From the IMG/VR virus record IMGVR_UViG_3300009103_000001, positions 146,158-210,157 of that record: a DNA stretch of 64,000 nt. The stretch is one strand, 5' to 3'. Below, piece after piece: positions 1,229-51,073 of the stretch. This DNA is from a virus. The notes below the pieces were generated by a model that saw nothing but the letters and a program-made list of their open reading frames with translations, had not been told where the DNA came from and did not search any database. The stretch's first letter is position 1, and each line of letters starts with the position of its first letter. Both the position numbers and the translations under genes were made by a program.

Positions 1229-1612
1229 TTAGAACTTTGCTTGTTTATAAATTTGTGTCATACTCCCATCACCTCTATCATTATACTTAGGAACCCTAGG
1301 GTCTCTATCTGATATTGGTGAATAAAAGATTTTTGGGGTTTTAACCCAAGATGTTATTCTATCTGCTCTAAATGTTTTCCATCCAGGTTGGTCAGTATCA
1401 GTAACACCCTCAACTTGGTAGACCCTAATTATTGGATTGCCAGCTTTAGATATACCATAAACATAGGGTTCAATCCATCTCCAACCCTTTTCCATAGTAT
1501 TATCACCCTCATAGTAACATCTTATTGTTCTATGTTTTTCTATGGCGTCCTCAATTTCAGACCTACTTGCATTTTCTAATATAAGATTTTCAAGTAGATA
1601 GTAAAGTTTCAT
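1229..1612 (-). CDS. WYL-like domain protein with capsid-targeting-like N terminus, 127 aa
   Basis: I chose the ATG at 1612 because it lies one base after the stop of the upstream gene (1614); an upstream in-frame ATG at 1711 would overlap that gene by about 100 bases. After a leader MKLYYLLENLILE the protein reads A-I-E-K-H-R-T-I-R-C-Y-Y, then W-R-W-I-E-P-Y-V-Y-G and F-R-A-D-R-I. This order (short helix, I-x-Y-Y strand, R-x-I-x-P, R-x-F-R-x-D-R-I) is the pattern of WYL domains, ligand-sensing modules usually fused to helix-turn-helix regulators. No HTH is present. The leader ends in LILE, like a prohead-protease cleavage site, and strongly resembles the start of the protein at 40462 (MGKLSYILEEVILE, then IEKHRKI). 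I infer a small head-packaged WYL-fold protein. The fold assignment is moderate and the packaging is inference. Confidence 0.55.
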   Translation of the reverse strand: MKLYYLLENLILENASRSEIEDAIEKHRTIRCYYEGDNTMEKGWRWIEPYVYGISKAGNPIIRVYQVEGVTDTDQPGWKTFRADRITSWVKTPKIFYSPISDRDPRVPKYNDRGDGSMTQIYKQAKF

Positions 1613-6043: not shown

Positions 6044-6075
6044 ATAAAAAAATACAATCTAAATAGATTTAGATT
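6044..6075 (-). terminator. AT-rich hairpin terminator after the DHH gene
   Basis: AATCTAAAT and ATTTAGATT (6056-6064 and 6067-6075) form a perfect 9-bp stem with a 2-base loop overlapping the DHH stop codon. On the minus strand it is followed by a T-rich run. The stem has few GC pairs, so strength is doubtful. Confidence 0.4.
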
Positions 6076-7498
6076 ATTTCTTACTAGAGTCGATTTTTTC
6101 TTTTAGTTTCTTTACGAAGGTTTGAGCAAATGCTTTCAAAAATCTATTACCATCTTTACCAAAATACATTAAACCAGATATATTAGTAATACATTTATGT
6201 CCGCCACTATTTGCCTGTAACATATCCCAACCAGTTACAGATAATAATTTTAAAGCCTTTTTTTCATTATTACTTAATGAAGTATATGGTTTAGACATTA
6301 CTGTTTTTAGTGCTTTTTGCCATCTTTCTATTGTATAATCTTTTGGGGCCTTTTTAGGCATACTATTTAAACCTATTATGCCGTCATCAGTATCTTCAAA
6401 CATGGCAATCATATCAGTATAATTAAACCCAACAGATTCATCATCAAAAGATTTATGTTTTTCAGCAAAATATTTTATAGTATCTACAGTTATTTTTTTA
6501 CTTTTTAATCTAGATTTATACACATCTAAAACTTCTTGAGCTATTTCACCCAAATTGACACCCTTTAATTCTCTATTAGCTTTGAACGGATTACAAGAAG
6601 ATTGTAATAACCCTAAAGGCCAAGCAATAACTAAAAAATTAGCATCAGGATAATTTTTAAAAGGAACATATCTATCGTAAGAACCGGGTTTAAATAGATT
6701 ACCACCACCATATTGAGCTATAATACCGTAATCTTCTAGGTAAGTCACTTTATCACTGTCTTTTTGTGATTGGATATAATTAGCAATATTTTTTTTCATA
6801 ATATCAGGAGAAACATACCCTTCTTCTTTAGCTAATCTAACTATGTTTAAATAAATGTTTAATAGAGATGGTGTTGATTCTAAAACTAGTCTTTCTAAGA
6901 ATCTTGGTTTATTTTTATAGGCTAATAAAAGTTTATTTGTTACTAAGGCCATTATTTTTTTATTTTTAGATAATTCTTTTTCTTTATCTAATTCAAAAAT
7001 ATAAGTCATAACATCTTCTGGTTTAATACCCATTTTAACAAAATCAGCAGAATCAACTGTTGATATCATTTTAATATCAAAATCTGGAAATATATCTGTT
7101 GGTGAAACTATTTGTGAAATAGTTTCTACGTTAGACCTAGATTGTCTAAAAGATTTTGAAGCTTGTTTTTCAGCACCAACTTGTTTATCGTGATGGTCGG
7201 TATGGACTACAAACATTGGTTTACCGTGAGCAAAGTCAACTAACACAGGCATTATATCACCCTTAGCCGAGGGTTTTTTTATGGCAAACTCTTTATCACC
7301 ATATTGTATAACTTCCGCATCAACAACTTTAATACCATTATTTTCTAAATAATTTTTCATAGCTAAAGCTGTTGTAACACCATCTAAATCTTGGTGAAAG
7401 TATATTTTAGCTTTATCATATCTATTAGATAAATTACGCATATTACGTAAACCACTTTCACTTAATATACTACTTAACATGTTTTCTTTTAATATCAT
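6074..7498 (-). CDS. DHH-family phosphoesterase with capsid-targeting-like N terminus
   Basis: A 474-aa protein. H-Q-D-L-D-G (residues 35-40) is the first metal-binding motif, a further Asp is at VDFAHG (88), and V-H-T-D-H-H-D (residues 98-104) is the name-giving DHH motif. S-G-G-H-K near residue 431 is the GGHK-type motif of a DHHA1 substrate domain. Family members are metal-dependent enzymes that cleave short RNAs, pAp or cyclic-dinucleotide products; the substrate here is unknown. The start may be the ATG at 7498 or the one at 7480: the late-type element at 7502-7512 lies too close to 7498 but at a normal distance from 7480. From 7480 the protein begins MLSSILSE, then SGLRN, an I-x-E cleavage-like site as in internal head proteins. 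Packaging in the virion is inferred from this alone. Confidence 0.85.
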   Translation of the reverse strand: MILKENMLSSILSESGLRNMRNLSNRYDKAKIYFHQDLDGVTTALAMKNYLENNGIKVVDAEVIQYGDKEFAIKKPSAKGDIMPVLVDFAHGKPMFVVHTDHHDKQVGAEKQASKSFRQSRSNVETISQIVSPTDIFPDFDIKMISTVDSADFVKMGIKPEDVMTYIFELDKEKELSKNKKIMALVTNKLLLAYKNKPRFLERLVLESTPSLLNIYLNIVRLAKEEGYVSPDIMKKNIANYIQSQKDSDKVTYLEDYGIIAQYGGGNLFKPGSYDRYVPFKNYPDANFLVIAWPLGLLQSSCNPFKANRELKGVNLGEIAQEVLDVYKSRLKSKKITVDTIKYFAEKHKSFDDESVGFNYTDMIAMFEDTDDGIIGLNSMPKKAPKDYTIERWQKALKTVMSKPYTSLSNNEKKALKLLSVTGWDMLQANSGGHKCITNISGLMYFGKDGNRFLKAFAQTFVKKLKEKIDSSKK

Positions 7499-32261: not shown

Positions 32262-32672
32262 TTGGATAGAGTTTTATTTAAATCTAATAAAATAGGTATT
32301 AAAAAATCACCCATACATGGTTGGGGTGTATTTGCATTGGAAGATATTGAAATTGGTGATTTGATTGAGGAATGTCTCTATGTTCCAATAGAAACCTATA
32401 ATGAGGGTGATGTGATAATACATTATTCATTTCCCTATCCAAGAATTTTTGGTGAGATTAAAGATAGTAATAAAAAAATAGATAAAATAATTCAAGTAAT
32501 AGTATTAGGGTATGGTTCATTATATAATCATTCTCTAACACCAAATATTGATTATGTAACTAATACTGAATTAGGTGTGTTTGAATTTATATCGTTTAAA
32601 AAAATAAAAAAAGGAGAAGAATTATTTATAAAATATCATAATAATCCAGATTTTATAAAAGAGAAAAAATAA
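32262..32672 (+). CDS. SET-domain protein (putative protein methyltransferase), 136 aa
   Basis: A minimal SET domain. H-G-W-G-V-F-A (residues 19-25) is the N-terminal SET motif, L-Y-N-H-S-L-T-P-N (87-95) is the SAM-binding N-H-S motif, and KKIKKGEELFIKYHNN (about 113-128) is the C-terminal G-E-E-L-x-x-x-Y motif with the catalytic Tyr. SET proteins transfer methyl from SAM to lysine in proteins. The substrate is unknown; a host or virion protein is possible. The start is a TTG at 32262, since no ATG precedes the first motif. It is the first gene of a three-gene cassette; its stop overlaps the next ATG by one base. Confidence 0.82.
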   Translation: MDRVLFKSNKIGIKKSPIHGWGVFALEDIEIGDLIEECLYVPIETYNEGDVIIHYSFPYPRIFGEIKDSNKKIDKIIQVIVLGYGSLYNHSLTPNIDYVTNTELGVFEFISFKKIKKGEELFIKYHNNPDFIKEKK

Positions 32673-33322
32673 TGGAAGCAACATTTAAAATAAACATGGT
32701 GGATATTTGTGACATCCAATTAGGTGACCATTTTAATACATTAGTAAACAAATATTCTAATATTGCACAAACTTTAAATCCTGATAAATTTAATAAAGAA
32801 GAATTAGATTTAAACTTTCCTTATATAGAATCTAAACAACGTAAGTATTATGGTTTAGTAGAAACACTATGGAATAGTGGGTTATTAAAAGATAATATGA
32901 AAATTATAGATTTAGGTTGTGGTTTATGTACAACATTATATAATTTAAATTTACAATTTAAAAATTATAATATACCATCTAGTTTTTATGGTGTAGAATA
33001 TAATGAAGAGTTATTAAAAATATTTACCAAATATTTAAGTCCTCTTTGGGAAAATAATTTCCCTAAATTTGCTTTAGGCGATATTATGGACTGTGATTTG
33101 TCACAATACGATTTAATATTATCATATCAACCATTTAAAGATTTAGAATTATTAGAAAAAATGTATAATAAAGTTTTTAGTGAAATGAAATCTGGTTCTG
33201 TTTTTCACGAACACAATTATAAAGATAGAGAAGAAACTTTACTAAGAAGTGTCAATAATAACATTGAACCGAAAATATCTTTATTTGGTGGTGAAAAACA
33301 ACCTTTATTTATAAAAAAATGA
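32672..33322 (+). CDS. SAM-dependent methyltransferase (class I), 216 aa
   Basis: MKIIDLGCGLCTTLYNL (about residues 76-92) is the glycine-rich SAM motif I. S-F-Y-G-V-E-Y-N (acidic residue for ribose binding) follows at about 109, K-F-A-L-G-D-I-M-D is near 134 and Y-D-L-I-L-S-Y-Q-P-F near 147, in place of the N-P-P-Y of DNA methylases. The S-Y-Q-P-F form argues against an adenine-N6 DNA methylase. The acceptor cannot be predicted. It overlaps both neighbours (SET gene by one base, patatin gene by four), so the three products are made together. Confidence 0.75.
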   Translation: MEATFKINMVDICDIQLGDHFNTLVNKYSNIAQTLNPDKFNKEELDLNFPYIESKQRKYYGLVETLWNSGLLKDNMKIIDLGCGLCTTLYNLNLQFKNYNIPSSFYGVEYNEELLKIFTKYLSPLWENNFPKFALGDIMDCDLSQYDLILSYQPFKDLELLEKMYNKVFSEMKSGSVFHEHNYKDREETLLRSVNNNIEPKISLFGGEKQPLFIKK

Positions 33323-34266
33323 AAGCATTAGTAGTTTCAGGTGGTGGTAGCAAGGGCGCCTTTGGTGGTGGTGTTGCACAATACCTAATAGAAAAAGAAA
33401 AAAAAGAATACGATTTATTAATAGGGACTTCCACTGGTAGTTTACTTGTACCATTTATTGCCATAAAAAAAATGGATACATTAAAAGAGGCATACACAAC
33501 TGTTACCCAAAAAGATATTTTTAATGTTAACCCATTTAAAGTTAAAAGTGATGCAAATGGTGTAGTTAAAGTGGGGATTAATTTTAAAAATGTTTTATGG
33601 AATATATTGGTTAGGAGGAAGAAGTCATTTGGTGATGCAGATAATCTTAAAAAATTGATAAGGAGATTTATGAGTGAAAAAGATTATAGAAAAATAAAAG
33701 ATTCGGGTAGAGAAGTAATTTGTACCACCACAAACCTAACATTAGGTAAACCAGAATATAAATCAACAAAAGAATATGGGTATAAGGATTTTTGTGATTG
33801 GACATTAGCTTCAGCAACAGTACCACCATTTATGAGTGTGGTAGAAAAGGATGGTTATGAATATGCGGATGGAGCAATATTGGAACATGCTGCGATACAA
33901 GAAGCGATAAATAGAGGGGCGAAAGAAATAGATGTTATTATTCTTAGAAAGGAAGAAACTGAATTACCCCCAGAATTAATTAGAAATGCTTTTCACTATA
34001 TATTTAGAACAATAGATTTAATGATGTTGGAGATAGGTAGGTCTGATGTTCAGATTGGTAAATTAAAATCTAAAAAAAATGATGTTAAATTAAATTTTTA
34101 TTATACACCAAGAAAACTTACCAACAATTCTTTGATATTTAATAAAGAGAACATGTCGAGTTGGTGGGAAGAAGGTTATATGTCCGCAAGAAAGAGATTT
34201 TGTAAGTCATATAATTTATGTGGCAAGAAAAAGGCTAAGTTAACATATGATGGTACAATAGATTAA
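33319..34266 (+). CDS. Patatin-like phospholipase, 315 aa
   Basis: The oxyanion-hole loop is V-S-G-G-G-S-K-G-A-F-G-G-G (residues 6-18). The nucleophile elbow G-T-S-T-G (36-40, Ser38) and the dyad motif Y-A-D-G-A-I (about residue 193) are intact, so it is probably active. Patatins hydrolyse membrane phospholipids. In bacteria they serve as toxins and as effectors of anti-phage systems. In a phage, this one could damage membrane at lysis or kill a superinfected cell. The ATG overlaps the upstream TGA (ATGA). The stop overlaps by a few bases that of the opposite-strand regulator-like gene at 34263. Confidence 0.88.
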   Translation: MKALVVSGGGSKGAFGGGVAQYLIEKEKKEYDLLIGTSTGSLLVPFIAIKKMDTLKEAYTTVTQKDIFNVNPFKVKSDANGVVKVGINFKNVLWNILVRRKKSFGDADNLKKLIRRFMSEKDYRKIKDSGREVICTTTNLTLGKPEYKSTKEYGYKDFCDWTLASATVPPFMSVVEKDGYEYADGAILEHAAIQEAINRGAKEIDVIILRKEETELPPELIRNAFHYIFRTIDLMMLEIGRSDVQIGKLKSKKNDVKLNFYYTPRKLTNNSLIFNKENMSSWWEEGYMSARKRFCKSYNLCGKKKAKLTYDGTID

Positions 34267-37409: not shown

Positions 37410-37922
37410 ATGTCAAAAATTATAAAAAAAGGTGAATTAGATTTAGTTATTGAATCAACACTAAAAGAAGTAAAATTAAATGTAGATAGTGGCATTGAAG
37501 TTGAGTTAGACTCAAACTTAGAAGTTAATGAGGCTAAAACATATAATACTTCAAAAAATAATTCTTCTACTAAAGTAGAGGCTAAAACATATAATACTTC
37601 AAAAAATAATTCCTCAAGTAAAACCGAATCTGAAGATGTTATTGGTACTGGTGATACTGGTGATTCTGATGAAGCTGGTGCACCTGAGTCTGAAAAGGGT
37701 GAAAAAGAGTTTGATAAAGATGAAGATAAAACAAATATCTCAGAAAAAGAAAATACTTGTGATGATTGTGGTAAGTCTAATGAAGATTGTGAATGTGAAA
37801 AAGAAGATATCGTTGAGGTATCAGTAAGTGATTTGGCAGAATCAGTTGTTAAAACAACACAAAACGACATATTAAAAGAAAGTCTTGAAAACTTTAATAA
37901 ACTAATAAATTATAGAAAATAA
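37410..37922 (+). CDS. Acidic low-complexity protein with targeting-like leader and Cys motif, 170 aa
   Basis: Unknown family. The start MSKIIKKGELDLVIESTLKE has V-I-E and L-K-E sites like those of head-targeted proteins. Then come two tandem 16-residue repeats E-A-K-T-Y-N-T-S-K-N-N-S-S (48-bp DNA repeats at 37530-37625) and a long Glu/Asp/Ser stretch. A compact C-D-D-C-G-K-S-N-E-D-C-E-C motif at about residues 116-128 could bind zinc. The last 40 residues are helical. A long ORF on the other strand here is a shadow. It is the first gene of a two-gene unit ended by the terminator at 38659. Confidence 0.6.
   Translation: MSKIIKKGELDLVIESTLKEVKLNVDSGIEVELDSNLEVNEAKTYNTSKNNSSTKVEAKTYNTSKNNSSSKTESEDVIGTGDTGDSDEAGAPESEKGEKEFDKDEDKTNISEKENTCDDCGKSNEDCECEKEDIVEVSVSDLAESVVKTTQNDILKESLENFNKLINYRK
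37530..37625 (+). repeat. Two tandem 48-bp repeats inside the acidic protein gene
   Basis: gaggctaaaacatata... occurs at 37530 and again at 37578; the first 35 bases of the two units are identical. It encodes two copies of a 16-residue unit. Confidence 0.8.
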
Positions 37923-37929
37923 TTAAAAA

Positions 37930-38640
37930 ATGACTAAAAGATATAAAATCAGAAAAGAACAATTAGAAAGAGTAGTAGAGTCTTTCGTAATGGAGTCAGC
38001 AGCACCTGAAGCTAAAAAACATGTACAGGGATATAATGATAAAGAAGATGAGTCTTTAGGTATGAGAACTGGTAAGGAATCTACTAAAAAACAATCTGAT
38101 AAAGCTCGTAGAGATGATTCATATGGTAAATGGGGTAAAAGAGGTAAATATGGACCTGAAGCTAAAAAACATAAAATGTCAATGGGAGCTGAACAAACTG
38201 ATGATTCTGGTGAAGGTATGAAAAAACCTTCAGTTGCGAAATCTATGAAGATGAAACACGCTCCTGAAGCTAAAAAACATGTTAAAGGTGGTTCACTTTC
38301 TGAAGCTAAAAAAAAAGAAATAACTAAACTTTTAGAGAATGGTGACATTTCTGAAGCAGAATTACAAGAATTTTTCGGTATTGGTTCTAAAATGAGAAAG
38401 AATAAAATCGAAAAGGAATTAAAAACTAGAGCATTTGCTTGGACAAAAAAGGGAGCAATATCAAAACCTAGTCAACAAGACTTAGATGATATAATGAAAA
38501 AAGCTGAAGAAGATGATTATAGTGGTACTATAAGAATACAAAACGGTAAAATCGCATATCAAACACAAGATGAATTTATGGCTTCTGGTGGTAAATACCA
38601 AGGTTCTGGAAATCCACAAGGAGGTGGTTTTGCTGGTTAA
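37930..38640 (+). CDS. Basic repeat protein with targeting-like leader, 236 aa
   Basis: Unknown family. Starts MTKRYKIRKEQLERVVESFV, then M-E-S-A-A; V-M-E is a possible cleavage site near residue 22. Three P-E-A-K-K-H units (about residues 25, 76 and 112) alternate with Lys/Gly-rich segments, giving a disordered basic first half. A small folded part follows (about 120-236): ITKLLENGDISEAELQEFFG, FAWTKKGAISKPSQQDLDD and a Gly-rich tail. A basic protein with a removable leader could be a DNA-associated internal head protein like T4 IPIII, which I offer as inference. It starts 7 bases after the acidic protein's stop; opposite charges may mean they interact. Confidence 0.6.
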   Translation: MTKRYKIRKEQLERVVESFVMESAAPEAKKHVQGYNDKEDESLGMRTGKESTKKQSDKARRDDSYGKWGKRGKYGPEAKKHKMSMGAEQTDDSGEGMKKPSVAKSMKMKHAPEAKKHVKGGSLSEAKKKEITKLLENGDISEAELQEFFGIGSKMRKNKIEKELKTRAFAWTKKGAISKPSQQDLDDIMKKAEEDDYSGTIRIQNGKIAYQTQDEFMASGGKYQGSGNPQGGGFAG

Positions 38641-39096: not shown

Positions 39097-39957
39097 ATGA
39101 ATAAAATTCTAATAACAGAGTCACAATATGGTAAATTAAGGTCTTTTTTATTGGAAATGAGATTGCGGTCTTATATTTTTGATTGGGACGATAATATACT
39201 TCATATGCCAACTGAGGTATTAATAGACAAAAAAGTTGACGGTGAATGGGTACCAATGTCTATGGCAACAGGTGATTACGCTAAATTTAGAGAAGACCCA
39301 AATTATAGATTAAGAAATAATAAACCTTCCCAAGCTTTTAAATGGTTCTCAGATAATGATGCTTTTATAAAAGATGTTAAAAAGGCAATACATCATGAAA
39401 GTTTTGCACCTAGTTTTAACAAATTTAAAGAAGCTTTAATAAATTCTAATCCATTCGCAATAAATACAGCAAGAGGACATCAACCAACTACAATTAAAAA
39501 AGGTGTAAGAATTTTTATTGATATGGTTTTAACAGATAGTGAAAAAAATGAGATGGTCAATAATATTAGGAAAAATTTAAAATTAGCTGAAGGGTTAAAT
39601 GACGAACAAACCATTGATTTATATTTGGATGAACTGGGTGAGTATTATCCAGTATCTTCAGGTGAGTTTGGCAAGAGATTTGGTTTAGATGTACACGGAA
39701 GTGCAGCTAGTCCTGAACACGCTAAAAAAGTTGCTATAGAACATTTTACTAAAAAAGTATTTGATAATATGGACAAACTTATAAATAGTGGTTATAAAAA
39801 AATGTCTGTTGGATTTTCTGATGACGATTTGGGTAATGTTAGAGCTGCTGAAGAATTTATAGAAAATGAATTAAATAAAATGTACCCTGAGTTACACTTT
39901 GTTGTTTATGATACATCAGATAAGGGTATAAATAAGTTGGTCATCGAAAAAGAGTGA
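39097..39957 (+). CDS. HAD-superfamily phosphatase with capsid-targeting-like leader, 286 aa
   Basis: After the leader MNKILITESQYGKLRSFLLE the HAD motif I reads Y-I-F-D-W-D-D-N (nucleophile Asp29, acid Asp31). Motif II is FAINTARGH (about residue 124) and motif IV is V-G-F-S-D-D-D-L-G-N (about 242). A large cap region lies between residues 40 and 115. HAD enzymes remove phosphate from small metabolites, proteins or nucleic-acid ends; the substrate is unknown. The leader has I-T-E and L-L-E sites before the catalytic domain, like a prohead-protease-removed tag. First gene of a four-gene overlapping operon: its last bases overlap the GTG start of the next gene. Confidence 0.72.
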   Translation: MNKILITESQYGKLRSFLLEMRLRSYIFDWDDNILHMPTEVLIDKKVDGEWVPMSMATGDYAKFREDPNYRLRNNKPSQAFKWFSDNDAFIKDVKKAIHHESFAPSFNKFKEALINSNPFAINTARGHQPTTIKKGVRIFIDMVLTDSEKNEMVNNIRKNLKLAEGLNDEQTIDLYLDELGEYYPVSSGEFGKRFGLDVHGSAASPEHAKKVAIEHFTKKVFDNMDKLINSGYKKMSVGFSDDDLGNVRAAEEFIENELNKMYPELHFVVYDTSDKGINKLVIEKE

Positions 39958-40469
39958 AAAAATTAATCAAAAAAATATTAAAAGAAGAGTCAAAAGATTT
40001 TGATTGGACAAAGTCTGTAGACCCATTAGATGATTTTAGTGATTATTTTTATGGTACTGGTAACTACATCTTTAGAAAAAATACTCCAGGTAGATATATT
40101 AGACGTGATAGTGGTTGGTGGCGTAATTGGATTGAAGACGTTGAAATGGCACACCCAGCTATTATGGAAGATGTGGCAGACCTAGAGGATATGGTTGGGG
40201 ATTTAGTTAATCCAAGAAGAGGAAAAACTAAAGAATATAAAAAGTTAGCTGTTGATGTTTATGAGTTTTTTAAGGGGGTAAGAGTATTGGGTGGTAAGAG
40301 TATTATTGAAGACTCTGCTTCAACAATATTAGATGCTTATAATATCTTTGGTTTATATGCTGAACAAAATAATTTAACAATATTTGAGGTTATGGACATT
40401 TTTACTAGTTGGTTGGATAAAATGGATAATGAAGGTATACCATTACATGACAAGAACAAAGATGGGTAA
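39954..40469 (+). CDS. Unknown protein with targeting-like leader, 171 aa
   Basis: Starts at a GTG that overlaps the upstream TGA (GTGA). The leader MKKLIKKILKE, followed by ESKDFDW, ends in I-L-K-E. The body is helical and rich in Trp (SGWWRNWIEDVEMAHPAIME) with R-R-G-K-T-K-E-Y-K-K and D-I-F-T-S-W-L-D-K-M near the end. No family is recognised. Its leader and the D-F-D-W that follows closely match those of the protein at 42099 (MKKIILKILNE, G-D-W-D-W). No signal peptide or membrane segment is present; the leader is too short and charged for export. Confidence 0.6.
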   Translation: MKKLIKKILKEESKDFDWTKSVDPLDDFSDYFYGTGNYIFRKNTPGRYIRRDSGWWRNWIEDVEMAHPAIMEDVADLEDMVGDLVNPRRGKTKEYKKLAVDVYEFFKGVRVLGGKSIIEDSASTILDAYNIFGLYAEQNNLTIFEVMDIFTSWLDKMDNEGIPLHDKNKDG

Positions 40470-42102
40470 ATTAAGTTACATATTAGAAGAGGTTATACTA
40501 GAATCTCGTAGAAAGGATGTTATTGAAAAACATAGAAAAATTTTAGATGGAGGTTTTGGTGATACTTTTGGTGAAAATCCGACACATTTAGACGGTAAAT
40601 GGGTAGATTCTTTTGATGATGTCGTGATTTGGGTGGAAAAGGAGTTATCGCACCCAAAATACTTAGATTTTGTTTTAGGTGGGTTATGTTGTGGCGGATA
40701 TGGTGCAGAACCAGATTATATGGTTGACTTAGTTAATGACTTTCATGAATTATCAGAAAGAAATTACATAGAAAATAAGGATATATACTCCAAGGAATAT
40801 CAATCATCACCTAGTTCTAATTACACAGATTTTAATAGATTAGAAGAAGTTATAGAAAACGCCAAAATAAATTTAGAAAAAAAAGAAACAGAAAAAAGAG
40901 TTAAAAAAGATAAAGTAGTAATATATGAAGATGATAGGTGGCGTGTTATAGTACCTAAAACACATGAAGCTTCTTGTCATTATGGGGCTGGAACAAAATG
41001 GTGTACAACTAGTAAAGACGAGGTTGGTCATTTTACTAATTATACTGATATAGGTATATTATATTATATATTAGATAAAACAAAAACATCTGACGTAGAT
41101 GATGTTATGTATAAAATAGCCTTATTTTTAAGGTATCGTGTAACAAAAGAAGATTTTGGTGATGTTTATACAGCTATACCATTTAATAGGGCGGCAGAAA
41201 TGTTTGATTCACAAGATAGAGAGGTTAATTTTGAACACGTATTACCACTTTTACCAGCTGAGTTAGAAAATAGTGTAATAGCATATTATTATAAGATAAT
41301 AAAAGAAAATAATAATAGATTTGAACATAACACCAAAAAAATGTTTGTAGATAATAATTATCTAAATATTTTTATTGATAAATTTAATACAAAAACACTA
41401 AATGATGACTTTTTTAGTGGTATGGGTACTTTAGATTGGGACGTAAAAAATACTCATGGTTTAGTTTTCTTTAATTTTGGTGACGCGACATATTATTTAT
41501 ATTTTTTACCCACAACCAAAAATAGTGAAAATTCATATTTATATGATTTGTATGTTCGCAAACACGGTAGTGAGGCTAATATTCGAATTGATAAAGAATT
41601 TTTACCAGAAAGACAAATATCTAAAAAACTTAAGTTAGGACAAGATGAAAAATCTATTGTAAATGATATGATGGATTATTCTGTGTATGAGGTTTTAGCG
41701 GCAATAAAAAGACACTATTTTAATAAAAAAATTGAATCTGGTGATTCTAAAACATATATTGAAAAGGATAATACTATATATTGGAAACCTTTAAATAGTG
41801 CCTCTTCTTATAAATTTAAATATCCACCTAAAGAGGGTTCATTAACTTATGAATTTATTAAAGCAGTAAAGGAAAATCCAGGTATAACACCAAAAGAATT
41901 TTATAAAGATAAGTATGATTTTGATTATTATTCTGGGTATAATACACAGTTCTTCGGTTCAATTAAAGATTCGGGTATACTTAGAGTTGAAAAAGGACCA
42001 TATGGAATATTAAAATATTATTTAGGGCCTAATTATGAAGCATGGACAAAGGGTAATATAAAAAGATTACATGGTAGACATAAACCAATACACTTGTGGT
42101 GA
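40462..42102 (+). CDS. Unknown protein with Y-G-A-G-T-K-W-C motif and targeting-like leader, 546 aa
   Basis: I chose the ATG at 40462, which overlaps the upstream stop by 8 bases and gives the leader MGKLSYILEEVILE; earlier in-frame ATGs lie inside the previous gene. Residues 20-27 (VIEKHRKI) match the WYL-like protein at 1229. A domain centred at residue 173 reads V-I-Y-E-D-D-R-W-R-V-I-V-P-K-T, then C-H-Y-G-A-G-T-K-W-C-T-T-S. I have an impression that this segment recurs in other phage proteins, but I know no function. The last 90 residues (SLTYEFIKAVKENPGITPKE ... Y-G-I-L-K-Y-Y-L) look like a winged helix. Third gene of the operon; overlaps the next start. Confidence 0.62.
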   Translation: MGKLSYILEEVILESRRKDVIEKHRKILDGGFGDTFGENPTHLDGKWVDSFDDVVIWVEKELSHPKYLDFVLGGLCCGGYGAEPDYMVDLVNDFHELSERNYIENKDIYSKEYQSSPSSNYTDFNRLEEVIENAKINLEKKETEKRVKKDKVVIYEDDRWRVIVPKTHEASCHYGAGTKWCTTSKDEVGHFTNYTDIGILYYILDKTKTSDVDDVMYKIALFLRYRVTKEDFGDVYTAIPFNRAAEMFDSQDREVNFEHVLPLLPAELENSVIAYYYKIIKENNNRFEHNTKKMFVDNNYLNIFIDKFNTKTLNDDFFSGMGTLDWDVKNTHGLVFFNFGDATYYLYFLPTTKNSENSYLYDLYVRKHGSEANIRIDKEFLPERQISKKLKLGQDEKSIVNDMMDYSVYEVLAAIKRHYFNKKIESGDSKTYIEKDNTIYWKPLNSASSYKFKYPPKEGSLTYEFIKAVKENPGITPKEFYKDKYDFDYYSGYNTQFFGSIKDSGILRVEKGPYGILKYYLGPNYEAWTKGNIKRLHGRHKPIHLW

Positions 42103-42638
42103 AAAAAATAATACTTAAAATATTAAATGAAGGTGATTGGGATTGGGTTACAAATATACCACCATTTTTAGAGGTTGGTGACCCAGTTAGTAATAAAAAC
42201 CCAAAAGATAGTTGGAGGGTTATATGGAAAAATGGTTTTGGTGAGGATTATGGTACTTGGACTGATGAGTGGGCCAATATTAATAATAATGTAGAGGGTA
42301 TTGAAAGGTTAGAGTGGTTAATTAAAATTTTAAGTTTTAGTATGAAACCTGAACATAGAGGTCACATACCTATAGAAATATTATCCGAATTAGCTGCCGG
42401 TGGTGAGTCTTGGGTTTTAGGTCCATGGGACACCCAATATCGTAATGAACTAGAAGGTGAGGATAAGGAAGAAGCTATATTTTTAGCTAAAGATTGGTTA
42501 GTAGATTTATTAGAGGATTGGCATATTTTAAATCGTGACGATTATCATGCTTATTATGCAACATTGGAGGCTTGGGAGGTTAGGTATTTTGATAAATATG
42601 GTATAGAACATTTTGTTAAGGTAAATAATCTATGGTAA
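42099..42638 (+). CDS. Unknown protein with targeting-like leader, 179 aa
   Basis: Two adjacent GTG codons (42096, 42099) could start it. I prefer 42099 because it forms the same GTGA overlap as at 39954 and gives MKKIILKILNE, the near twin of that leader. After I-L-N-E comes G-D-W-D-W-V. The rest is Trp-rich and acidic (SWRVIWKNGFGEDYGTWTDE, E-A-I-F-L-A-K-D-W-L-V-D-L-L). Function unknown. Last gene of the operon; it converges with the ClpP gene, 10 bases apart, with no terminator visible. Confidence 0.6.
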   Translation: MKKIILKILNEGDWDWVTNIPPFLEVGDPVSNKNPKDSWRVIWKNGFGEDYGTWTDEWANINNNVEGIERLEWLIKILSFSMKPEHRGHIPIEILSELAAGGESWVLGPWDTQYRNELEGEDKEEAIFLAKDWLVDLLEDWHILNRDDYHAYYATLEAWEVRYFDKYGIEHFVKVNNLW

Positions 42639-42648
42639 GTCCCTTATC

Positions 42649-43338
42649 TTATTTTTTGTTAGGTTTTCCAATAACCTCATCAATAATTCCATAGTCTAAA
42701 GCCTCATTAGCACTTAACCATAAATCTCTTTGAGCGTCTTTTTCAACTCTTTTAGCGGTTTTACCACAATAACCGGCTAATAATTCAAATAATTCCTTAT
42801 TTATTTTCTCCCACTCGTCAAACCCAATTCTAGCGTCTATTATGTTTCCGCCAACACCACCACTTGATTGGTGTAACATTGTTCTTGAGTGTTTTAGTGA
42901 ACTTCTCATACCCTTTGTACCCGCTCCAAGTAATAATGAACCCATTGAAGCGGCCATACCAGTATTAATTGTCTGTATGTCCGCGTCAATATAACTCATA
43001 ACATCTATCATAGATAATCCAGCTTTAACTGAACCACCTGGTGAGTCAATATGCATTGTTATTGTTTTGTTTGGGTCTTGTTGTGATAAGAATAGTAGTT
43101 GTGCTTGTACTATAATAGCCATCCTATCGTCTACTGGTCCAGCACACCATATAATTCTGTCCATCATTAGTCTGTCAAAAACAGACATTGCGGCCACATT
43201 TAATTGACGTTCTTCTATAATTGTAGGTGTTACTGAATATTCTATGTTTGGAACCTTGGATTGTAGGTTTTGATAACTGTGTAGTGTATTTGAATTTACA
43301 TTCAAATGTTTTGTTGCGTAATTATTAAATTCTGACAT
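42649..43338 (-). CDS. clpP: ClpP-family serine protease, 229 aa
   Basis: A complete ClpP. IDSPGGSVKAGLSMIDVM (98-115), then G-M-A-A-S-M-G-S with catalytic Ser131, then M-L-H-Q-S-S-G-G with His156, then D-A-Q-R-D-L-W-L-S-A-N-E-A with Asp205. The Ser-His and His-Asp distances (25 and 49) equal those of E. coli ClpP. The N-terminal 45 residues are longer than usual, possibly a propeptide. ClpP forms a tetradecamer that degrades proteins fed by ClpX or ClpA. No ATPase is in the window, so it may use host Clp ATPases or act in head maturation. It is a lone minus-strand gene with a host-type promoter, suggesting early expression and proteolysis in the host rather than late assembly. Confidence 0.95.
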   Translation of the reverse strand: MSEFNNYATKHLNVNSNTLHSYQNLQSKVPNIEYSVTPTIIEERQLNVAAMSVFDRLMMDRIIWCAGPVDDRMAIIVQAQLLFLSQQDPNKTITMHIDSPGGSVKAGLSMIDVMSYIDADIQTINTGMAASMGSLLLGAGTKGMRSSLKHSRTMLHQSSGGVGGNIIDARIGFDEWEKINKELFELLAGYCGKTAKRVEKDAQRDLWLSANEALDYGIIDEVIGKPNKK

Positions 43339-44170: not shown

Positions 44171-46411
44171 ATGGATGAAAAAAAATATAATAACGCGTTA
44201 ACATTATTAGAAGAAAAAGAACTAGAAAAATTAAAACTAGACCTTTTAGAATGCTTAAAAGATATAGAATCTTTAAATGATAAAGTTTTCTTAACTGAAA
44301 GTGAAAAAATGTTAATGGAGGTTTCATTGTGGGATAAAGCTAAATATTATCTAGGTAAGATAGGTAGGTATAAAGCTGGGGGAAAAATATTTGGTAAGAA
44401 AAAGGTAGACCAAGAAGCGGCAGAAAAAATAGAAACAATATTAAATAAAAAGGGTAACGAATTTATTAAAAATCTTCACACAACAATCCAAAAAATGAAT
44501 AAAGGTGAAGATGGTAAAGGAAAGGGTGAATTTCCAAATAATATGGACCCTGAAATATTTTTAGAAATAGTTTTAACAATCGCAGCAACATATGACTCAA
44601 TTGTTGGGGCAACTAAAAAAGATGCTGAAGATGAAGGGTTTTTACCTGTTGATATGGCGAATAAAATAATTGCCGACCTTAGAGATTATGTTAAAAAATA
44701 TTTAGATGTAGATGTACAGTGGACACGTTCAATATTTGACCATGAAGAAGAATCTGATGGTGATTTATTAAATGAAAAATGGACTGACAAGGTTTGGAAT
44801 TTTGTTACTGGTGGTGGTAAAGATGATAAACATAAAGAAGTTAGAACAAAATTACAGGGTAAGGTAGGTAAGGATTCAGAAAAATTCGATTCTGAAAGAA
44901 TGAAAACACTATACTCTAATAAACTACCTTTAATACTTAGTGCTATAGGTGGTTCTTTAGGGGCTCTAGGTTGGTTAGCTCAAACAGATTGGTTAAAAAG
45001 TTTATTGGAGTCTTGGTTAAATACCGATGGTGTTCCAGGTCAAGATGCTGTAACACAATCTTTTGATGGTGGTAATGCAGACCCTGAAGGGATGGTTCAT
45101 TGGATGAGAGAAATTGACCCTAGTAATCCAGTTGAAACCGGTTCTGATATTAGTGATTTTATTAGTAAACATGGGGCGGAAAATGTTAGTCATATGTTTG
45201 ATGGTAATGGTGCTGGTGATTCTATGGAACAAATCGGTAAATTAAAAGACTTAATCGGTGGCGATGGAGCCAATCAAAGTGTTGGTGAGTTATTTAGGGG
45301 TGATACCTATGGTGACATGAAGGGGGGTAGAAATTTATTTGGTATTAGTAAGGCAGCCTCATTTGCGTCTAAGGTTATTGTTAAACAAGCGGTTAAAGCT
45401 ACGGCTGGTTCTGTTGCTGGAACAGTTTTAGCGGGTAAATTAGCCTTTTTAGGTTCTATACTGTTACCTATAGGTATAGGTATTTTAGGGACTGGTATTT
45501 TAGTTAAAACCATGAGGGTTAAGGGTAGAAACCAATCTAGAAGTAGGACATTGGATGATTTACTGCAATCATTACAGGATATTAAACCAACAAAAGTAAA
45601 CCCACCAATAATAGAACCAGACCCACCAGGACCAGGACCAGAGCCCGATGTAGACCCAGAGTTCTTAAAGGGAAATAGGAATATGCAATTAGCCCATTTA
45701 TCAAAATTATTTTTACCAATCGGTGAAGATTTTTGGTCACGATTGGGATTAAAAGATGGAACAAAAATACCTAGTGGATTTTTAGATGCAGCGTTAGCAC
45801 AAGGAAAACCAAACCAAGAAAAATATTTAAATGCCTATTATGACCATTTGGTTAAAAACAATTCTTTCACTAAGGAGGTCAGTAAAGATGATTGGATTAT
45901 GACAACACTAAAACAATCAGATAATTTAGCTTTAATAAGGTGGATTAGAAATACTAGAAAAGGTATAGGTAGTTTCTTAAATGCTTTAAGAAAGGCTTTT
46001 GATGATTTTAGTATTGGTGATAGAGCTAAGGCTAAACCATTAAGACCTGGAAAAGAAGGTGAAGCTATGGCTTTAGCTGGTGGTCAAACAGATGAGTCAA
46101 TAAAAAAAGAAGATAATTTACTCGTAGAAGTTGGTTTGGGGAAAATCGCTGGAGCGGCTGGTTTTGATGAAAATTTATTTATGAAAAATTTACCACAGTT
46201 TATGGCTATGTTAAGTGCTATGTATTATAGTACGAAAGGAGAACCATTACCATATGATGGTGAAGCTGTAATGAAAAGGTGTGAAAAGTATGGGTGTAAA
46301 GCCGGCTCTGATAAGACATATGAAAAAACAAAATCCGATGATTACCAATTTATGGAACAATCATCTAAATTAACAGAAGAAATTAAAAGAATTAAAAATT
46401 TAATGCAATAA
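44171..46411 (+). CDS. Large virion-type protein with hydrophobic segments and internal LxE sites, 746 aa
   Basis: Unknown family. Residues 1-50 are a charged coiled coil leading into F-L-T-E-S-E-K-M-L-M-E-V-S-L-W-D-K, with two possible prohead-protease sites. A similar joint, DLLNEKWTDKVWNF, lies near residue 200 and N-L-L-V-E-V-G-L-G-K-I-A-G near 655. Hydrophobic segments are LPLILSAIGGSLGALGWLA (about 255-273) and a longer one near 407-445 (GSILLPIGIGILGTGILV). A proline-rich linker PDPPGPGPEPDVDP (about 483-497) divides it. Helical and partly membrane-active parts would suit an internal protein ejected to help DNA cross the host envelope. This is inference from composition and from its place just before the tail tube gene. 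Confidence 0.6.
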   Translation: MDEKKYNNALTLLEEKELEKLKLDLLECLKDIESLNDKVFLTESEKMLMEVSLWDKAKYYLGKIGRYKAGGKIFGKKKVDQEAAEKIETILNKKGNEFIKNLHTTIQKMNKGEDGKGKGEFPNNMDPEIFLEIVLTIAATYDSIVGATKKDAEDEGFLPVDMANKIIADLRDYVKKYLDVDVQWTRSIFDHEEESDGDLLNEKWTDKVWNFVTGGGKDDKHKEVRTKLQGKVGKDSEKFDSERMKTLYSNKLPLILSAIGGSLGALGWLAQTDWLKSLLESWLNTDGVPGQDAVTQSFDGGNADPEGMVHWMREIDPSNPVETGSDISDFISKHGAENVSHMFDGNGAGDSMEQIGKLKDLIGGDGANQSVGELFRGDTYGDMKGGRNLFGISKAASFASKVIVKQAVKATAGSVAGTVLAGKLAFLGSILLPIGIGILGTGILVKTMRVKGRNQSRSRTLDDLLQSLQDIKPTKVNPPIIEPDPPGPGPEPDVDPEFLKGNRNMQLAHLSKLFLPIGEDFWSRLGLKDGTKIPSGFLDAALAQGKPNQEKYLNAYYDHLVKNNSFTKEVSKDDWIMTTLKQSDNLALIRWIRNTRKGIGSFLNALRKAFDDFSIGDRAKAKPLRPGKEGEAMALAGGQTDESIKKEDNLLVEVGLGKIAGAAGFDENLFMKNLPQFMAMLSAMYYSTKGEPLPYDGEAVMKRCEKYGCKAGSDKTYEKTKSDDYQFMEQSSKLTEEIKRIKNLMQ

Positions 46412-49300: not shown

Positions 49301-51073
49301 ATGACCAAAAAATTAATGGATATTATAAAAGAAGATGTTCCTTCAGAACTTCAACAATATAAGAAACCATATGATAAAATGATGAAATCTGCGTCAGATG
49401 ACACAGAAATGGTTCAGGCAAAACTAAGAGGTAGTGATGATGATTTGGACTCCGCCGCATCTAAATTTGGCATGGGGTCTGGTTTAGATTTTTATCCATT
49501 AGTTTCCATGGAAAAACCCTTCAATACAGCATTTGAGGTTAAATTTGTTGGTGCTAAAATACCTGTTCATTGGAAGGGTGAAAAATCAGAAATAGAAGGT
49601 GATTCAGAGGTAGATTCGTTTAATGCGGTAATTTGGTTAGACCCAGAGTCTTTTAAAAAAGTTAAAGGTGGTTCTACAGATGATGAATACAAATTCAAAA
49701 TTGTTAAAATTGATAACAAAGAGTTAAATGATAATTATTTAATTTTTAGAGGTAATGAAATAAACATTACAGATAAAAGAGTAGGTAAGGTTACACCACA
49801 ATTAAGTACTAGTAAAAAATATAATATAAATATATCTATCGGTGATGATGAGGTTACTGGTGGAGATGGTGGTGATACTGAAGGTGGTGACGTTGATGTA
49901 CCAGAAGAAATAGCTAACGGTAGGAATAGAAATGAGATATTTAGATTGTTATTAAATAGGTTTGGTGGTTTTAATGGTTATGTTGTTCATGGTGATGGAT
50001 TTAAAAATATTGAGGACGCTAGAGCCTATGGTAGGTTATTAAAAGCTATAAAAGCCGGAAAAGAAGATGAGTCAAAGGCAAAAGAATTTAGAGATAAAGT
50101 TAATAGAGATTCATATGCTATGATGATTTCTAATCTTAGAAAATCATTTCCTAGTAATTTTTTATCAAAACTATCAAAAGCTTTTCCAGAGTTTAACATA
50201 ACTTTCAATAAAGAAAGTATTGGAGAAAATATTGTTAAACAAAATTTATTAGAAGAAGAAAATTCAGACAAATATAAAAGGTGGAATATTGTATTTCCTG
50301 GTAAGGTTGTTGGTGGTAAGTCTATAGATGCTTTGGATAAAAATATTATTAATTTTATGAAAGCCGTTAAAAAATGGTTTGCTGTGCCAATAGATTATAG
50401 AGGAAAAAAACAATCATATACAATAAATTATGATGAAGATAAGGTTAATAAATATTTTTCAACTTTTTATAGTAAAAAGGAGAGTATGCTATCTATTGGT
50501 AATATCTTGAATGAAATAGTTAAAGATAGATTACATGAAGATGATGAAAATATTGGAACTGATACAGAAAAAAAACAGAAAATAGAACCAAAAATACAAT
50601 TAATTTTTAATAAAATAGAAGTTAAAGGTATGAAACGTGGTGAACAAAATTATAGTGATGATGATTTTGATAGAACAGCAAAATCTTTATCAGGTGGTGG
50701 TAAAGTAGAATTAAAGATTTCAAATTTTGAATTTAAAGATTCTTTAGATAAGATTAAGGAAAAAGCTGAAAAATCTAGTAAAAATTTCAGTTCAGGAGAG
50801 GTAGAATCTTTTATAGATGTATTAAAAAACATGAATAATAATACTGTTGGTTTAAAATCCGATAGAGAAAATTTAATGTTAAATATTGGTAAAACTAAAC
50901 TAAATAAAAATATATGGTTAAACATACCTATTAAAGATAATGGGGGTGATTTAAATGTTTTACTTAAAAAATTAGGTAATGGTGATACCTTTATTAAATG
51001 TAGTATAGCTTATGCTGACCCATACGACCCATTCATTAAGGATGATATTGTTATTAAATTAAAGTTAAAATAA
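49301..51073 (+). CDS. Unknown virion-region protein with targeting-like leader, 590 aa
   Basis: Begins MTKKLMDIIKE, then DVPSELQQY; I-I-K-E is a possible prohead-protease site at residue 11. A beta-rich part (about 60-195; F-Y-P-L-V-S-M-E-K-P-F-N-T-A-F-E-V-K-F) is followed by an acidic Gly linker (GGDGGDTEGGDVDVPEE). A helical part with N-L-L-E-E-E follows, then a second beta-rich half after residue 330. No family is recognised. It lies between the hub gene and the tape measure gene with its own late-type element, so a tail, hub or head role is equally possible. Confidence 0.55.
   Translation: MTKKLMDIIKEDVPSELQQYKKPYDKMMKSASDDTEMVQAKLRGSDDDLDSAASKFGMGSGLDFYPLVSMEKPFNTAFEVKFVGAKIPVHWKGEKSEIEGDSEVDSFNAVIWLDPESFKKVKGGSTDDEYKFKIVKIDNKELNDNYLIFRGNEINITDKRVGKVTPQLSTSKKYNINISIGDDEVTGGDGGDTEGGDVDVPEEIANGRNRNEIFRLLLNRFGGFNGYVVHGDGFKNIEDARAYGRLLKAIKAGKEDESKAKEFRDKVNRDSYAMMISNLRKSFPSNFLSKLSKAFPEFNITFNKESIGENIVKQNLLEEENSDKYKRWNIVFPGKVVGGKSIDALDKNIINFMKAVKKWFAVPIDYRGKKQSYTINYDEDKVNKYFSTFYSKKESMLSIGNILNEIVKDRLHEDDENIGTDTEKKQKIEPKIQLIFNKIEVKGMKRGEQNYSDDDFDRTAKSLSGGGKVELKISNFEFKDSLDKIKEKAEKSSKNFSSGEVESFIDVLKNMNNNTVGLKSDRENLMLNIGKTKLNKNIWLNIPIKDNGGDLNVLLKKLGNGDTFIKCSIAYADPYDPFIKDDIVIKLKLK

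Follow-up and report, generated by a model that had tools for sequence, protein, structure and literature searches.

Four leader-bearing genes at one locus

The stretch of DNA analysed here (the window) is the final 64 kb of a 210,157-base virus record (G000 146158-210157; window and G000 coordinates are kept apart throughout), and it contains an operon of four plus-strand genes that successively overlap by 4-8 nt (Table 1). All four encoded proteins open with a short N-terminal leader ending in [L/I]xE, of 20, 11, 14 and 11 amino acids (aa) for genes 1 to 4. A first-pass annotation had described four overlapping genes with basic or hydrophobic leaders of this type, which the coordinates and leaders confirm, with the operon now appearing as part of a larger tagged set. 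We read the four genes, with good confidence, as encoding head cargo of a T4-superfamily phage, equipped with cleavable capsid-targeting leaders; more broadly, many unrelated proteins of this large T4-type bacterial virus very probably share one kind of removable leader for packing in the head with the DNA.

Two cut sites had been proposed for gene 1: the second, SFLLE↓M (the arrow marks a proposed cut), is backed by comparison, whereas the first, MNKILITE, is poorly conserved. Gene 2 retains its gene order and leader type in the relative loci L007, L008 and L015, and genes 2 and 4 are members of a group of small proteins with an xFDW motif after the cut. Immediately past the predicted cut, many proteins that otherwise differ also have an acidic-aromatic-acidic-Trp motif (FDW/WDW/FEW), seen at window 39987-40010 and 42132-42150 as well as in numerous relatives.

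One kind of leader on unrelated bodies

Reading covered the window, a 60-kb region surrounding the head module and some loci near 63 kb, where about 25 proteins have such leaders; of the 27 matches collected, two represent a single gene that two loci both include, and a few (131742-, 120886- and 114418-) look like chance. Variants of MKKIIKLNENDIENLVKKIIKE open six head-region genes with unrelated bodies (G000 105015, 105627, 106011, 107461, 115360 and 116135), as well as a seventh if it is read from an internal start near G000 115739, and near-identical 22-residue leaders sit on unrelated bodies. Short forms, such as MEKLIKKILKE (84505), MKDLIKKILKE (89174-), MGLIRKIIKE (107805) and MNIKKIIRE (112748), resemble the C-terminal half of the long form. 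Except for the YGAGTKWC paralogues, the bodies behind the leaders show no mutual BLAST similarity; the leaders themselves are similar.

A strict test, requiring a basic leader followed by [hydrophobic]2-x-E, was run over 124 kb and picked out 15 of 124 N-termini, as against 0-4 positives when the same test was applied at seven internal positions and a mean of 4.3 (maximum 13) in 2000 shuffles. With a broad motif, the counts were 13/22 genes in the head module (104-117.8 kb), 6/11 in the operon region and 3/33 in the block at 117.8-144 kb. The minus-strand gene block at G000 124080-143991 (L004) reads like sugar- and methyl-transferases and is nearly leader-free. A further head-region protein carries three xFDW modules in a single reading frame, with [LI]xE before each, resembling a polyprotein from which three pieces of cargo would be cut.

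A prohead protease and a capsid protein with the same cut motif

A search of the genome for a gp21-like protease, proposed in the first-pass annotation, found an S77 (gp21-type) prohead protease (PF03420, E=3e-26) together with a gp23 major capsid protein. The protease shares 45% identity with its counterpart gp21 in Flavobacterium phage immuto and keeps the HPES and GISSRG motifs. The gp23 propeptide ends at an aligned [LIV]xE, LINE↓T here and IVSE↓A in immuto, and nine further relatives show the same propeptide end (HLINE↓A, YLINE↓Q, STLISE↓T and QLVVE↓A). The cut rule of T4 is L/I-x-E (PMC9026906); given the gp23 propeptides and the gp21-like protease, that rule is expected to hold in this phage. 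S77 is also present in 10 of 10 large YGAGTKWC-bearing contigs with a full gp23. In the huge phages LR745206 (W01), LR756502 (W02), LR756501 (W03) and LR756504 (W04), the frames containing an S77-like match are about 700-800 aa long.

A phage-encoded ClpP homologue adjoins the operon in this genome and in relatives. As a candidate for the cutting protease it was rejected: it resembles true ClpP, and nothing ties ClpP to the [LI]xE rule.

A conserved boundary in three unrelated families

The first-pass annotation had called for an alignment of leaders across relatives, and in three unrelated families (YGAGTKWC, DHH and HAD) the [LI]xE boundary is kept. Members of the YGAGTKWC family, found at 517 viral loci, have [LI]xE exactly before [GSNDA][RK], at the start of the body, in 32 of 33 leadered cases, and the pattern search of 84,980 cellular genomes did not find the family. 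DHH phosphoesterases have it immediately ahead of [SGT]G[LI]R or TGIQ in 34 of 35 distinct N-termini; the exception (L246), preceded by non-coding DNA, begins right where the cut would fall, with MGGIRN. The background rate of [LI]xE is 0.012 per position, to be set against these two fractions with the caution that family members are not independent. Across homologues the junction stays, with leaders that vary in length (5-21 aa) and in sequence.

The HAD-like enzyme occurs at 72 viral loci, and 37 of its 43 distinct phage leaders have [LI]xE 7-15 residues before FDWDDN, although the leaders themselves vary from MNIKITESQYKILKE to MNHKKLVREILLE, MIINFKNFLLE and MDILRFDQFIRE. Cellular homologues, mostly from Kiritimatiellae and Verrucomicrobia, keep the body and not the leader; [LI]xE lies upstream in 8 of 71, mostly inside a conserved PYINE stretch and once in a probable phage contig (phage versus cellular, Fisher p = 5e-16, relatedness ignored).

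Homologues without the leader, which the first-pass annotation had regarded as potentially damaging, do exist in small numbers, and the outcome is mixed and tag-like: a few keep the body and lack the leader. They comprise HAD homologues in L068, L077, L041 and W03, with W04 likewise and counted apart, six sampled members of one YGAGTKWC subfamily, and this genome's own YGAGTKWC paralogue at G000 114418-115158. Natural leaderless forms, which favour the reading as tagged cargo, are found in L246, L068 and L077 and in the MAKxKDL subfamily of YGAGTKWC proteins. Protease loss was not supported as the cause of leader loss, W03 and W04 having a protease match and an untagged HAD; most other HAD contigs are uninformative on this point because they are fragments without a head module.

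Leader style follows the virus

In LR745206 and LR756502, the HAD and DHH leaders are MIKKFNQFLE and MISKYNQFINE in one case and MDILRFDQFIRE and MLRKYGQFINE in the other, and head-region genes of these phages open with MKINKYKKFLE, MKYLSKYNMFIE or MKHIKRFNE. These leaders resemble MKTYQEFIAE of T4 ipII and ipIII (read from the T4 record), whereas the likeness of the leaders of this genome to the T4 sequence is limited to [LI]xE. Because HAD and DHH bodies in the two huge phages carry that lineage's own leader, leader style appears to track the virus and not the body, as would be explained if the tag has to fit the core of each virus instead of belonging to the enzyme. The cut rule may be looser in those huge phages, since the FLE and FNE ends depart from strict [LI]xE.

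The tagged bodies

Gene 1 had been called a HAD phosphatase. The four catalytic motifs (D29xD31, T124, K210 and D242-D244) are invariant among 27 aligned relatives, and in a confident predicted model motifs I (DxD), II (T/S), III (K) and IV (DD) lie at strand ends; the assignment as a HAD-like phosphatase rests on these motifs and their placement, as no Pfam HAD model or other HAD family profile matches. The model has a mean predicted local distance difference test score (pLDDT) of 84.7, its weak part being the leader (63-65 over the first 20 residues). Compared with folds in the PDB, gene 1 gave nothing significant, with HAD structures among the best yet weak matches (cN-III 5'-nucleotidase, E=0.035).

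The core of gene 3 has a confident predicted model, and neither this YGAGTKWC core nor the DHH protein, the latter compared by sequence only, had a significant match in the PDB. Single-protein scans with genes 2 and 3 found no relatives; an alignment-based search did find relatives of gene 3. A single 973-aa frame in L136 (IMGVR_UViG_3300024520_000047) joins DHH to YGAGTKWC, which suggests that the two act together. The ECF-type sigma factor has a similar start in one relative (L224), its crAss-phage relatives are without the leader, and it is possible that the tagged form is delivered by the virion. The junction of the WYL-domain protein is conserved in one relative.

Table 1. Leader-bearing and neighbouring features (window coordinates unless marked G000)
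Feature	Coordinates	Strand	Leader and remarks
Gene 1, putative HAD-like phosphatase, 286 aa	39097..39957	+	Long leader MNKILITESQYGKLRSFLLE (39097-39156), proposed cut after E20
Gene 2, small Trp-rich protein, GTG start	39954..40469	+	MKKLIKKILKE (39954-39986), then xFDW motif
Gene 3, YGAGTKWC-family protein, 546 aa, ATG start	40462..42102	+	MGKLSYILEEVILE (40462-40503), body from SRRKDV
Gene 4, small Trp-rich protein, GTG start at 42096 or 42099	42096..42638	+	MKKIILKILNE (42099-42131), then GDWDW motif
Tagged gene upstream of operon	37410..37922	+	MSKIIKKGELDLVIESTLKE; similar start kept in orthologues L008, L010, L011, L012, L015, L071
Tagged gene upstream of operon	37930..38640	+	MTKRYKIRKEQLERVVESFVME, cut then SAAPEAKKHV; leader and junction region kept in orthologues L007, L009, L011, L014, L071
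746-aa protein	44171..46411	+	Possible long propeptide ending MLME↓VSLW (E50); relatives RLLE↓VSLW, VILE↓VSLW, RIDE↓GAW
590-aa protein	49301..51073	+	Candidate leader MTKKLMDIIKE↓D
DHH phosphoesterase	6074..7498	-	MILKENMLSSILSE, cut then SGLRN
WYL-domain protein	1229..1612	-	MKLYYLLENLILE, cut then NASR; internal ATG at about 1612; PF13280 E=2e-5, over cut-off
ECF-type sigma factor	G000 84505-85050 (L002 511-1047)		MEKLIKKILKE; PF04542 E=7e-14, PF08281 E=5e-13
S77 prohead protease	G000 104209-105018
gp23 major capsid protein	G000 110065-111888
Three-module xFDW protein	G000 112748-113842 (L003 8748-9842)		MNIKKIIRE
ClpP homologue	42649-43338	-	NF011091 E=3e-75, below its cut-off
Patatin-type lipase look	33319-34266		GGGSKGAFGGG, GTSTG; judged by eye
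SET-domain protein look	32262-32672		GWGVFALEDIEIGD; judged by eye

Virion evidence and points against tagged head cargo

The only direct virion evidence is at family level and comes from Pseudomonas phage PA5oct. Its gp279, a distant YGAGTKWC relative, has the N-terminus MKLFEVFTLYE↓DKAEL and carries an annotation as a structural protein detected by electrospray ionisation tandem mass spectrometry (ESI-MS/MS); the genome encodes S77. The first-pass claim of packaging in the head has this one family-level detection behind it, and none for this phage; a proteomic study of immuto virions was not found in PMC7077304.

Several observations weigh against the reading of these proteins as tagged head cargo. 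The PA5oct list itself includes likely co-purified enzymes (ribonucleotide reductase and thymidylate synthase). In PA5oct, bare [LI]xE within 25 residues is found in 17/85 proteins flagged by mass spectrometry (MS) and in 39/126 others, that is, without enrichment, so it was rejected as a predictor of virion proteins; since the motif alone is not diagnostic, it is the leader plus the conserved boundary that carries the argument. The residue after the cut (P1') is acidic (E or D) in 15 of 27 leaders of this genome, as compared with Ala in T4 ipII and ipIII. Finally, W03 and W04 have a protease match and yet an untagged HAD, and the paralogue at 114418- is leaderless in this very genome.

A possible mechanism and its alternatives

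It is plausible to envision that the basic, amphipathic leader of 11-20 residues binds the prohead core or scaffold, that the gp21-like S77 protease cuts after [L/I]xE during prohead maturation and frees the body inside the head, as the conserved junctions and the protease suggest, and that the freed body is packed with the DNA and, by analogy with the T4 internal proteins (IPs) and Alt, probably enters the host at infection. The same kind of tag is reused on the approximately 25 proteins, namely the HAD-like phosphatase, the DHH phosphoesterase, the ECF-type sigma factor, the WYL-domain protein, YGAGTKWC paralogues, xFDW proteins and small head-region proteins, and such a cargo set would fit host-takeover factors acting ahead of phage gene expression. 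That the leaders are of the capsid-targeting type and would be cut by a gp21-like protease, as first proposed, is well supported by the presence of S77 and gp23 in the same genome, by shared leaders on unrelated bodies and by three conserved [LI]xE boundaries.

A more ambitious scenario, which we put forward tentatively and rate at somewhat less than an even chance, is that a widespread lineage of large T4-superfamily phages injects takeover factors that work in concert: the tagged sigma factor would start early transcription, the phosphatase and the DHH phosphoesterase would act, perhaps, on nucleotide alarm signals, and WYL and YGAGTKWC proteins would accompany them, each lineage having a private leader and any gene being recruitable by gaining it. 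The first-pass suggestion of countering host defence found no direct evidence, the defence-system search (PADLOC) giving no matches except a weak WYL match in a tagged protein outside the operon.

Cleavage by the prohead protease could instead serve proteins that support head assembly, as core or structural helpers, and stay in the head or leave it, with none delivered to act in the host. The clustering of many tagged genes around gp21, the scaffold and gp23 speaks for this, and many tagged proteins are small and without a known domain; against this, a sigma factor, DHH and HAD-motif enzymes and a WYL protein are odd bodies for scaffolding, and the HAD family also occurs untagged and in Planctomycetes-Verrucomicrobia-Chlamydiae (PVC) bacteria, so that we consider a purely assembly-bound role unlikely, while giving it appreciable weight. 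A good deal less probable is an amphipathic helix that stays uncut and serves localisation to a membrane or replication compartment. The leaders are indeed basic, and that of gene 1, the one modelled, is predicted to be helical (helix 8-22), but a helix of this kind would not account for a junction that is conserved while the leader varies, for a gp23 propeptide that ends in the same motif, for a leaderless homologue that starts at P1' or for junctions that recur within the three-module protein. Chance, whereby AT-rich coding yields look-alike Lys/Ile/Glu-rich N-termini, draws on how common bare [LI]xE is in the non-MS proteins of PA5oct and was rejected as very improbable, being contradicted by the near-identical leaders on unrelated bodies, the N-terminal excess over internal positions and shuffles, and the family boundaries set against background.

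Comparison with known systems

The literature search found precedents in T4 and giant phages and no description of this tagged set; most subscription papers lay outside the search, so priority is not proven. If tagged head cargo is the correct reading, the proteins that many large uncultured phages inject would become readable from leader style and the conserved [LI]xE boundary, the phage-only YGAGTKWC family (more than 500 viral loci, no known function) would obtain a place in the virion, a virion-carried sigma factor would be predicted, and naturally occurring tags would be available with which to load phage heads with proteins.

In SPN3US and phiKZ, propeptides on head and ejection proteins are removed by the prohead protease (PMC5694885). 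The likeness lies in N-terminal processing of ejection proteins in large phages, gained and lost between relatives; the propeptides there are mostly much longer (often >100 residues), with another cleavage motif and a diverged protease. Flavobacterium phage vB_FspM_immuto, a relative with gp21 and gp23, has leader-like starts on unrelated proteins, such as a 5'-nucleotidase (MKKVMGNLADLLLE, cut then ESD), although its cargo set is different and its annotation is without leaders. PA5oct gp279 shares the family, the type of N-terminus, the protease and the structural annotation, while being only about 24% identical to the YGAGTKWC member used as query and having an annotation that reports no cleavage. 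The closest parallel is with the capsid-targeting sequences of T4 IPI-III and Alt, which are cut by gp21 (Mullaney and Black 1996, reviewed in PMC9026906). The leader sequence differs here, about 25 proteins are tagged as opposed to a handful, the bodies include enzyme motifs and a sigma factor, and the targeting role is here predicted from sequence; shared by both are the short N-terminal leader ending in [LI]xE, an S77 protease with a gp23 head, and different cargo behind a common leader.

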